From positions 620,001 through 684,000 of the forward strand of contig NZ_CP024047.1 in NCBI RefSeq assembly GCF_003430825.1: a DNA stretch of 64,000 nt, read 5' to 3'. Made by a program: the position numbers and the translations under genes. How positions within the stretch are numbered: position 1 is the first letter of the stretch; each line of letters opens with the position of its first letter. The DNA comes from Natrarchaeobaculum sulfurireducens. GTDB taxonomy: Archaea > Halobacteriota > Halobacteria > Halobacteriales > Natrialbaceae. Below, in pieces: positions 38,646 to 42,359 of the stretch. The notes under the pieces are model-generated. The model searched no databases. It was not told where the DNA came from and saw nothing but the letters and a program-made list of their open reading frames with translations.

Positions 38646-39050
38646 TCAGTTGCCTTCGACGCCGGTTACCTCGAAGCCGAGGTCGCGGACGTCCTCGAGG
38701 ATCGCCTCGTGGTCGGCGCTTGCTTCGTAGTAGATAACGATGTGAAACGCCCCCTCGCGAAGCAGTTGCTGGCACTCCCAGACGAACTCTTCGTCTTCGA
38801 GGGTGAGTCCCTGATGCTGATTCGAGGAGAACTGCGGGTCGTCGTTGCCCGAGTGGACGTAGCAGTCTTTGGGGTCGAACCCGGCGTGTTCGGCGACGAT
38901 ATCGCCGATATCGATCGTCGCCTGCATCATCTTGACGTCTTCTTGGCCGTCGTACTCGGTGTGGACGATTGCGCCGTTGAGTTCGATCTCGCCGGGTTCG
39001 AGCAACGCCTTGGTTCGCTGATAGAGGTCCTCGTCGATCACGTTAGCCAT
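38646..39050 (-). CDS. Conserved haloarchaeal protein (DUF5778-like), function unknown
   Basis: This 134-residue acidic protein starts MANVIDEDLYQRTKALLEPG. It is a compact alpha/beta protein with no signal or membrane part. Visible features are HTEYDGQEDVKMMQATIDIG in the middle and the C-terminal HIVIYYEASADHEAILED strand-helix, like a small ACT-type fold. I believe it belongs to a haloarchaeal family of unknown function. It diverges from uppS across 206 bp. Confidence 0.78.
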   Translation of the reverse strand: MANVIDEDLYQRTKALLEPGEIELNGAIVHTEYDGQEDVKMMQATIDIGDIVAEHAGFDPKDCYVHSGNDDPQFSSNQHQGLTLEDEEFVWECQQLLREGAFHIVIYYEASADHEAILEDVRDLGFEVTGVEGN

Positions 39051-39256
39051 TGTGCGAACCGAGACGGGCCGGACTCATAGCCGTCACGATTCCACCGAAC
39101 GCTCGAGCCGTCGTATGGCGGGCACACCTTTGCTCTCGGGGTGTGACTCGACGGACTGGCCGACCGACGTGTCCAGGTGCATCGTCGTTGTGATGCGTTT
39201 CACTGACGGAGAGTCACACACAAGACACATAGTCGTCGGTGTCGTCCCATCGACCG

Positions 39257-40216
39257 ATGAAGCGGTGGTTTCGACGGCGCGTCGACGCAGTTTACGAGGA
39301 CGTTCTCTCGAGAGAGGTCTCCGGTGCGCCGACCCACGTCGCGGTGATCCAAGACGGCAACCGTCGGTACGCTCGTCGAACGGGCGGTAACGCTCCAGAC
39401 GGCCACCGTGCAGGGGCCGAAACGACCGAGCGCGTCCTCGAGTGGTGCCAGGAAATCGGCGTCGAAGAGCTCACGCTGTATGCGTTTTCGACGGAGAACT
39501 TCGACCGACCTGACGAGGAGAACGAAGCGCTGTTCGACCTCCTCTGTGAGAAACTCCGGGAGTTCGCCGACGCAGACCGCGTCCAGGAAAACGGCGTCGG
39601 CATCCGCGCGATCGGCGAGATCGAACGGCTCCCCGATCGCGTCCAGGAGGCCGTTTCCTACGCCGAAGCGCGCACTCGAGACCACGAGCAGTTCGTCCTC
39701 AACATCGCACTCGCATACGGCGGCCGCTCGCGACTGCTCGAGGCGGCTCGTGACGTCACTGCGGCGGTCGAAGACGGCGATCTCGAGGTCGAGGAGATCG
39801 ACGTCAAGACGATCGAACGGCAACTGTACGATCAACCGGTCCGTGACGTGGACCTGATCATCCGGACGGGCGGTGACGAACGGACCTCGAACTTCCTGCC
39901 CTGGCACGCAAACGGCAACGAGGCCGCGGTCTTTTTCTGTACGCCGTACTGGCCCGAGTTCTCCAAAGCCGACTTCCTGCGAGGCATTCGGACGTACGAA
40001 CACCGCGAGGAGTCCTGGCGACGCACCCGTGCTCGTCGCGCTATGGCGTTGCTCGGTGCGCTCGGAGACGCAGACTTACCCGAAGCCCGTTCGGTGGTCG
40101 ATCGATTTCGCGACTCGCTGCCCACTGGCGAACGCTCCGCGCTCGACGACCTCGAGAAGCGCGAGCGGCCGGGCGACACCGACGGCGTCGACGCTGGCGG
40201 TCAGGCGGCGGATTGA
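39257..40216 (+). CDS. uppS: cis-Prenyltransferase (polyprenyl diphosphate synthase), catalytic-type subunit
   Basis: This 319-residue protein extends isoprenoid diphosphates with cis bonds, making the lipid carrier for glycans. The catalytic site is intact: Asp33 in HVAVIQDGNRRYARR. RTGGDERTSNFLPWHANGNE replaces the usual C-terminal IPP-site sequence, and no RxG motif is found at the end, which instead has an Arg-rich tail of about 50 residues. ATG at 39257 is chosen. It converges, with a 24-bp gap, on a second family member that has the complementary features. Confidence 0.9.
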   Translation: MKRWFRRRVDAVYEDVLSREVSGAPTHVAVIQDGNRRYARRTGGNAPDGHRAGAETTERVLEWCQEIGVEELTLYAFSTENFDRPDEENEALFDLLCEKLREFADADRVQENGVGIRAIGEIERLPDRVQEAVSYAEARTRDHEQFVLNIALAYGGRSRLLEAARDVTAAVEDGDLEVEEIDVKTIERQLYDQPVRDVDLIIRTGGDERTSNFLPWHANGNEAAVFFCTPYWPEFSKADFLRGIRTYEHREESWRRTRARRAMALLGALGDADLPEARSVVDRFRDSLPTGERSALDDLEKRERPGDTDGVDAGGQAAD

Positions 40217-40240
40217 ACCCAGCGTCGGGGACGTAATCAG

Positions 40241-40846
40241 CTACCGACCGAACCGCCGCGAACGATTACAGTACTCCCGGACGGCTCGCAGGAAGTCCCG
40301 TTTGCGAAAATCCCGCCAGTTGACGTCCGTAAAGTAGAGTTCGGAGTAGACGGACTGCCAGATCATGAAATCGGAGAGTCGTTCGGCACCCGTCTTGATG
40401 ACGAGGTCGGGTTCGGCCGGAAAGACGAGGTGGTCTTCGACGCGCTCGGCGTCGATTTCCTCGGCCTCGAGCGTGCCGTCGTCGACGCACTCGGCGAGGG
40501 TCCGGACGGCGCTCGTGAACTCGTGTTTGCCGCCGAGCCCGATCCCGATCCGGATAGGGGCATCCGCTCGCGTCCGATCGTCGGGGCCGCGAACAGCGAC
40601 CGCTCGTGGTGCGTCGATCGACTCGAGTTCCCGTCGGAGCGGGGGTACGGCCCCGGCGTCGAGAACGCTCACGTAGACGGTGACTCTGGAGGCGTACTCG
40701 ACGGCCCACTCGAAGAAATCGGTGAGCGTCTCGTAGGCGCCGCGCTCTAGGAGGTCGCGTTCGGTGATGACGAGGGCGACGTGATCGGGCGGCTCGGCCT
40801 CGTGGCGACGGATGCGACGCGCGAGGTACCGTTCGTACAATCCCAC
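40241..40846 (-). CDS. cis-Prenyltransferase-like protein without the DGNRR motif (possible NgBR-type subunit)
   Basis: This 201-residue protein has the fold of UppS, but the catalytic region reads HVALVITERDLLERG, so the Asp-Gly-Asn-Arg-Arg is lost. The second half is well kept: DLVIKTGAERLSDFMIWQSV, then YSELYFTDVNWRDF, and the chain ends in RSRRFGR, an RxG motif. This is the pattern of the non-catalytic subunit in heteromeric cis-prenyltransferases. The GTG at 40846 (MGLYERYLARR) is chosen; the open frame continues upstream without support. Confidence 0.85.
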   Translation of the reverse strand: MGLYERYLARRIRRHEAEPPDHVALVITERDLLERGAYETLTDFFEWAVEYASRVTVYVSVLDAGAVPPLRRELESIDAPRAVAVRGPDDRTRADAPIRIGIGLGGKHEFTSAVRTLAECVDDGTLEAEEIDAERVEDHLVFPAEPDLVIKTGAERLSDFMIWQSVYSELYFTDVNWRDFRKRDFLRAVREYCNRSRRFGR

Positions 40847-41027: not shown

Positions 41028-42359
41028 GTGACACAACCTGTTCGGCGAGCCGCCGTTTTTGCGGCCCTCTGTACGCTCTCGCTCGCCGTTCCGCTGTTCG
41101 GCCCGGTGGTCGGAGCCACGGTAGCGACGGTGGCGCTCGTGGGTGCGTTCGCCGTCACCGACGGGCCGCTGTTCGAGCTGCTCGCGTATCCTGGCGATTA
41201 CGAGGACCGACGACTCTACGGGCTAATCACGTTCGTGCTCGCCGGGGTCGCCCTCGGGCTCGTCGCGGTCGCCGGCTCGCTGTCGATCGCGATCTTCGTT
41301 GGGACCGTATTGCTGGTCGGCTACGGCAACCTCGCCGAACAGCTCGTCCGATCGGTGACCGACGACGACGTCCTCGTCGTGACGGGGTTCTGTCTGGCAG
41401 CGACGGCTGCCGCCGTCGCCGGACAGGTCGTGACGCTCTGGCTCGCAAACGGAGTCGTCGGCGCGGCGCTTCCCTCCGTGCTCTTTCTCGCCGCCAGCGG
41501 CGCGCTGCTCGCCGCGCTCCTCCGGGACGTGTTGTTGCTGTATGACGATCCGATCGTCATGCTTTCGGTTGGCCTTCTGTTGTGGCTGCTCGCGGAACTC
41601 GAGCCCGCGATCGGGGCGACGGAGATCGCACTCGCACTCGCCGTGACCGTCGCGCTCGGATACGCCTCCTACGCGCTTGGAACGGCGTCTGTCGCCGGAA
41701 TGCTGACCGGCGTCTTGCTCGGACTGGTGACGATCGTCCTGGGTGGCTACGGCTGGTTCGTCGTCCTCATCGCCTTCTTCGCCATCGGTGGTCTCTCGAC
41801 GAAGTTCCGGTACGACCGCAAAGAAGAACTCGGCGTCGCCGAGGACAACGACGGCGCTCGGGGCAGCGGGAACGTCCTCGGCAACGCCGCCGTCGCGCTC
41901 GCGGCCGTTCTGGGCTATGCCGCGAGTTCGGCGACGCTCCTCCCCGGAGATCCCGACCCCGCACTGTTTTTGTTCGCGTTCGCCGGCTCCGTCTCGACCG
42001 CGATGAGCGACACCCTCTCGAGCGAGATCGGGAGTATCTTCGAGACGCCGCGTCTCATCACGACGCTCGAACCGGTCGAACCCGGCACCGACGGCGGCGT
42101 CACCTGGCAGGGCGGACTTGCCGGGCTGGTCGGTGGCGCTATCGTCGCCGCCATCTCCTATGCGCTCTTTCCCGAGGTGGACGCGCTCGGCGCGACGATC
42201 ATCGTTGCCGCGGGTTTCGTCGGGATGATCGTCGATAGCATACTCGGGGCGACGCTCGAGGGATCGCTGCTCGGAAATCAGGGCGTGAACTTCCTCGCGA
42301 CCCTTTCGGGCGCGCTCGTCTGTGCGCTACTCGTCTTGTCGTCCGCTATTCTGGGCTGA
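41028..42359 (+). CDS. DUF92 family membrane protein (VTE6/phytyl-phosphate-kinase related)
   Basis: This 443-residue membrane protein has about ten to twelve helices. The DUF92 part is the C-terminal two thirds, with GGLSTKFRYDRKEELGVAED and the conserved AGSVSTAMSDTLSSEIGSIF. The plant member VTE6 is a phytyl-phosphate kinase, so a CTP-dependent isoprenyl-phosphate kinase is a fair guess. The N-terminal third (about six helices) is extra. The GTG at 41028 starts MTQPVRRAAV. It neighbours two cis-prenyltransferase genes, which supports an isoprenoid role. Confidence 0.85.
   Translation: MTQPVRRAAVFAALCTLSLAVPLFGPVVGATVATVALVGAFAVTDGPLFELLAYPGDYEDRRLYGLITFVLAGVALGLVAVAGSLSIAIFVGTVLLVGYGNLAEQLVRSVTDDDVLVVTGFCLAATAAAVAGQVVTLWLANGVVGAALPSVLFLAASGALLAALLRDVLLLYDDPIVMLSVGLLLWLLAELEPAIGATEIALALAVTVALGYASYALGTASVAGMLTGVLLGLVTIVLGGYGWFVVLIAFFAIGGLSTKFRYDRKEELGVAEDNDGARGSGNVLGNAAVALAAVLGYAASSATLLPGDPDPALFLFAFAGSVSTAMSDTLSSEIGSIFETPRLITTLEPVEPGTDGGVTWQGGLAGLVGGAIVAAISYALFPEVDALGATIIVAAGFVGMIVDSILGATLEGSLLGNQGVNFLATLSGALVCALLVLSSAILG

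Follow-up and report, generated by a model that had tools for sequence, protein, structure and literature searches.

A convergent pair of haloarchaeal cis-prenyltransferase genes as the probable two subunits of one enzyme

Two genes of the cis-prenyltransferase family (PF01255) face each other tail to tail in the window, the 64,000-nucleotide stretch of Natrarchaeobaculum sulfurireducens DNA analysed here, and this genome holds no other member of the family. The pair was placed at 39257-40846 by an earlier, sequence-only reading, and both the coordinates and the family assignment are correct. The locus raises the question of whether the plus-strand gene (A) and the minus-strand gene (B) encode two enzymes or, as that reading proposed by analogy with human DHDDS-NgBR, the two halves of one. 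Haloarchaeal N-glycosylation uses dolichol phosphate as its carrier (PMC3871713), and a search of the literature on haloarchaeal uppS genes returned nothing specific.

Division of the active site between the two proteins

The features of the locus are collected in Table 1. The product of gene A has 319 residues from the ATG at 39257, with a GTG at 39239 as a possible alternative start, and its stop codon ends at 40216. It matches PF01255 almost completely (230.1 bits, profile positions 1-216 of 219, cut-off 27) and exceeds the uppS equivalog cut-off of 109.55 bits.

Table 1. Coordinates of genes, motifs and neighbours at the locus, numbered within the window
Feature	Position	Strand	Basis or score
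Gene A, cis-prenyltransferase, catalytic subunit candidate (DHDDS-like role)	39257..40216	+	PF01255 match, full catalytic set
DGNRR, residues A33-37, equivalents of DHDDS D34/R37/R38; putative Mg and allylic-diphosphate site S1	39353..39367	+	alignment
FSTENFDR, residues A77-84, equivalents of DHDDS E81/N82/R85	39485..39508	+	alignment
RTGGDERTS, IPP-phosphate site S2, equivalents of DHDDS R205/R211/S213, intact	39863..39889	+	alignment
WHANGNEAAVFF, segment lengthened by two residues compared with UppS, DHDDS and B	39902..39937	+	alignment
C-terminal extension past the prenyltransferase domain, without RxG	40019..40213	+	end of PF01255 match
Gap between the convergent stop codons of A and B, 24 bp	40217..40240	.	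sequence
Gene B, non-catalytic partner candidate (NgBR-like role)	40241..40846	-	PF01255 and profile match to NgBR/NUS1
RFGR then stop, RxG plus one terminal residue	40244..40255	-	end of sequence
TERDL at the DGNRR position, degenerate S1 site	40751..40765	-	alignment
DUF92 (PF01940) membrane protein, transcribed away from B; may work with the enzyme without being part of it	41028..42359	+	203.7 bits

Active-site residues were compared in an alignment that comprised 148 A and 98 B proteins, five sequences of MM_0014 type and two of bacterial type. Its columns were assigned to subunits from the structure of the human complex (PMC7573591). Residues corresponding to DHDDS D34, N36, R37, R38, E81, N82 and R85 are kept in 147-148 of the 148 A proteins. 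The site S1 motif is present in every full-length A protein (147-148/148) and in none of the 98 B proteins, and the E, N and R of STENFxR are invariant (148/148). The two arginines and the serine that contact the IPP phosphate are likewise each found in all 148, so the IPP region of A, described as atypical in the sequence-only reading, does not reflect a loss of IPP binding. That description was overstated; what stands of it is the two-residue insertion downstream, whose longer spacing occurs in 103 of 137 A proteins, with the short spacing in 31 of 137, mainly from family f13.

The absence of a terminal RxG from A was also correctly read. The PF01255 match stops at residue 258 in the 325-aa frame of gene A, and RxG is missing from the domain end in 147/148 A proteins; the single RxG-like motif near the domain end looks incidental. 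In the extension beyond the domain, AlphaFold run on a single sequence predicts helices at 237-271, 277-287 and 290-303 with low confidence (pLDDT 43.9). The C-terminal helix-turn-helix of DHDDS, by comparison, mediates tetramer formation.

Gene B encodes 201 residues from a GTG at 40846 to a TAG at 40241-40243, and PF01255 matches its C-terminal half alone (91.6 bits, profile positions 115-219, cut-off 27). DGN is present in 0/98 B proteins, with an Asp at the position of DHDDS R37 in 90/98, and the GHxxG and FSTENFxR loops are both deleted in nearly all 98. As the sequence-only reading had it, the protein lacks DGNRR, retains SDFMIWQSVYSELYF and ends in RFGR. This ending is near-invariant, consisting of RxG plus exactly one residue in 96 of the 98 B proteins and KxG plus one in the other two. 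The same division of motifs recurs in 148 A and 98 B proteins across the phylum, far beyond what chance would give.

Homodimeric UppS of E. coli and similar species shares the fold family and catalytic set of A but combines DGNxR and RxG in a single chain. In the window they are divided over A and B, neither of which has both the catalytic Asp and RxG. Automatic annotation would nevertheless suggest two ordinary undecaprenyl diphosphate synthases with two chain lengths, and both proteins do exceed the PF01255 cut-off, A also the uppS equivalog cut-off. However, B falls below the latter (88 vs 109.55 bits) and lacks the catalytic Asp, both S1 arginines and two catalytic loops, which makes this reading extremely improbable. 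Two independent UppS enzymes were rejected because B no longer has the catalytic set.

Distribution and age of the pair

Co-occurrence was assessed in 296 genomes of the phylum that are at least 90% complete. Exactly two PF01255 genes were found in 277 and three to five in 16, so that two or more are present in 293 of the 294 genomes with any; the remainder comprises one genome with B alone and two with no PF01255 gene. A lone A gene was found in none of the 296, an outcome in keeping with the split-enzyme proposal, for which constant co-occurrence had been suggested as a check. In the window's own family all 125 genomes have PF01255 matches, with a single match in only one, which is 53% complete. 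Matches to the B profile span Halobacteria and methanogen families. A scan of genome contigs yielded only four B genes from named Methanosarcina and one unrelated chlamydial UppS.

In a quick maximum-likelihood tree A, B and the MM_0014-type proteins form clades with SH-aLRT support of 92, 99 and 100, respectively. The A and B clades both include Methanosarcina and, as each is a single clade, the split is older than the radiation of the phylum. This bears on the idea that B is a pseudogene decaying after a recent duplication of A. B is indeed shorter and has lost the catalytic motif, but the two clades are as old as the phylum, and B keeps an open reading frame and strong conservation in about 30 families, with a C-terminus that hardly varies. 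A pseudogene origin is refuted by this deep conservation, and we give it practically no credence.

Several genomes depart from the common pattern. Family f16 has no PF01255 match above the cut-off in any of five genomes (G131, G140, G423, G424 and G425), while DUF92 is kept in the two of them tested; the order shows an apparent loss of all cis-prenyltransferases, or else the assemblies are incomplete. Two A-type genes accompany one B-type gene in G392 (L128 and L129) and in G144 (L182 and L199), and a second B-type gene was not recognised for either among the sequences inspected. In one haloarchaeal assembly a 3.1-kb contig carries a UppS of bacterial type (L003, G090:C35), which is probably contamination.

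Wherever A and B share a locus they are convergent, with stop-to-stop distances from -54 (an overlap) to about 2,500 bp, and this layout extends to several methanogen families. The DUF92 family includes the plant phytyl-phosphate kinase VTE6. A DUF92 gene adjoins B in 28 of the 30 Halobacteria loci centred on B, and the same neighbourhood recurs in deeper lineages (L198, L202 and L204; G254, G125 and G250). DUF92 was not found beside B in Methanosarcina, where A and B themselves lie far apart on the chromosome. On the other side of the window's pair, upstream of A, lies a DUF5778 gene (38646-39050, minus strand).

Characterised relatives in humans and Methanosarcina mazei

NgBR-type partners in heteromeric cis-prenyltransferases include yeast Nus1 and plant Lew1. 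DHDDS, like A, supplies the Asp/Arg/Arg set and the IPP site, and NgBR, like B, ends in RxG plus one residue. What A lacks of the active site is present in B and vice versa, and the positions concerned are those that the human enzyme draws from DHDDS and NgBR. There, the NgBR RxG motif and terminal carboxylate (K293) extend into DHDDS, where the carboxylate of the RxG-K end binds R37 and R85; deletion of K293 or addition of one alanine lowers activity, and DHDDS alone, as a homodimer, is weakly active (PMC7573591). The likeness does not extend to the N-terminal membrane anchor of NgBR. No transmembrane anchor was found in B, with a maximum 19-residue hydropathy of 0.99 for the window's protein and at most 1.67 over all B proteins.

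By sequence, A is no nearer to DHDDS than to bacterial UppS. For B, a deep profile aligns with human NgBR/NUS1 chains over their full length, last residue to last (E 1e-10 to 1e-9), though bacterial UppS outscores NgBR against the same profile; a shallow profile of B failed to recover NgBR. Foldseek with the AlphaFold model of B (5-row alignment, pLDDT 54.7) recovered cis-prenyltransferases, with three NgBR chains among the top five, a result treated as weak given the low confidence of the model. The predicted A and B models are too low in confidence to judge an interface.

A closer counterpart comes from the same phylum. PMC8131916, citing 2019 work (its reference 13), reports that MM_0618 and MM_1083 of M. 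mazei assemble into a heteromeric cis-prenyltransferase with C45-50 products, and takes the two as the probable source of the glycosyl carrier lipid. Methanosarcina genomes contain one A gene, one B gene and, in some, a third PF01255 gene. In one of them (G408) the third gene differs from MM_0014 (PDB 7caq) by a single internal mismatch in the conserved 220 residues and otherwise only at the cloning end of the crystallised construct, which identifies this genome as M. mazei. As it has exactly three PF01255 genes, A, B and MM_0014, and MM_0618 and MM_1083 are the other two paralogues described in PMC8131916, these two must be the orthologues of the present pair, by elimination rather than by a match of locus tags. 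Distances along the chromosome make it probable that A corresponds to MM_0618 and B to MM_1083.

The M. mazei heteromer thus resembles the present pair in having one A-type and one B-type PF01255 gene, A with DGNRR and without RxG and B ending in RRYGK-stop. It differs in layout, since the Methanosarcina genes are far apart whereas those in the window converge with 24 bp between their stops, beside DUF92.

These relatives also bear on whether A could be a self-sufficient homodimer, with B a paralogue doing another job, for instance as a regulator that binds polyprenyl diphosphates. MM_0014, which ends in TLGG, is active as a homodimer without RxG and makes C25-40 chains and irregular products (PMC8131916). 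Together with the weak activity of DHDDS homodimers, this means that the absence of RxG does not in itself forbid activity of A alone. The versatile cis-prenyltransferases MM_0014 and MA1831 resemble A in family and in lacking RxG, but the MM_0014 type is homodimeric and forms a clade separate from A and B (support 100). Against a homodimeric A, the B tail of [R/K]xG plus one residue is kept in 98/98 proteins, just where the NgBR tail completes DHDDS; A never occurs alone in the phylum genomes sampled; and its M. mazei orthologue is reported to work in a heteromer (PMC8131916). We therefore regard a self-sufficient A as very unlikely.

The proposed enzyme and its meaning

It is highly probable that A and B together constitute a single heteromeric cis-prenyltransferase on the route to dolichol phosphate. 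The split enzyme of DHDDS-NgBR type in the sequence-only reading is very likely right, on the strength of the reciprocal residues, the phylum-wide co-occurrence, the ancient split and the reported heteromer of the M. mazei orthologues. A physical complex, a need for both subunits, and the length and role of the product in this organism are what we infer from these. A would use DGNRR and STENFxR to bind the allylic diphosphate and Mg, and R203/R209/S211 to bind IPP. B would be a catalytically dead homologue, inactive alone, whose RFGR tail, including its carboxylate, may cross the dimer interface and order or complete the active site of A. Together they would make a polyprenyl diphosphate, from which dolichol phosphate, the archaeal glycosyl-carrier lipid, is derived.

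A more speculative extension, which we hold to be doubtful, is that A, B and the divergent DUF92 gene form a glycosyl-carrier-lipid module ancestral to the whole phylum, with DUF92 acting on the phosphate group of the polyprenyl product. In that case the two-subunit design would go back far in archaea and might descend from the same event as the eukaryotic DHDDS-NgBR split.

The mechanism has precedents, since heteromers are known from eukaryotes and from M. mazei, and the present pair adds a haloarchaeal representative. What is new is the phylum-wide scope, the near-invariant B tail, the widespread convergent layout and the DUF92 neighbour, along with one order apparently without the cis-prenyltransferase family. 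The pair identifies the genes that most likely make the lipid carrier of haloarchaeal protein glycosylation, and reading them as two undecaprenyl diphosphate synthases would mislead, as one enzyme would be encoded by two genes. It also raises the question of whether the archaeal and eukaryotic splits had one origin or two. Mutations in human DHDDS-NgBR cause disease, and the phylum-wide pair would provide a soluble, anchor-free natural model of that enzyme.
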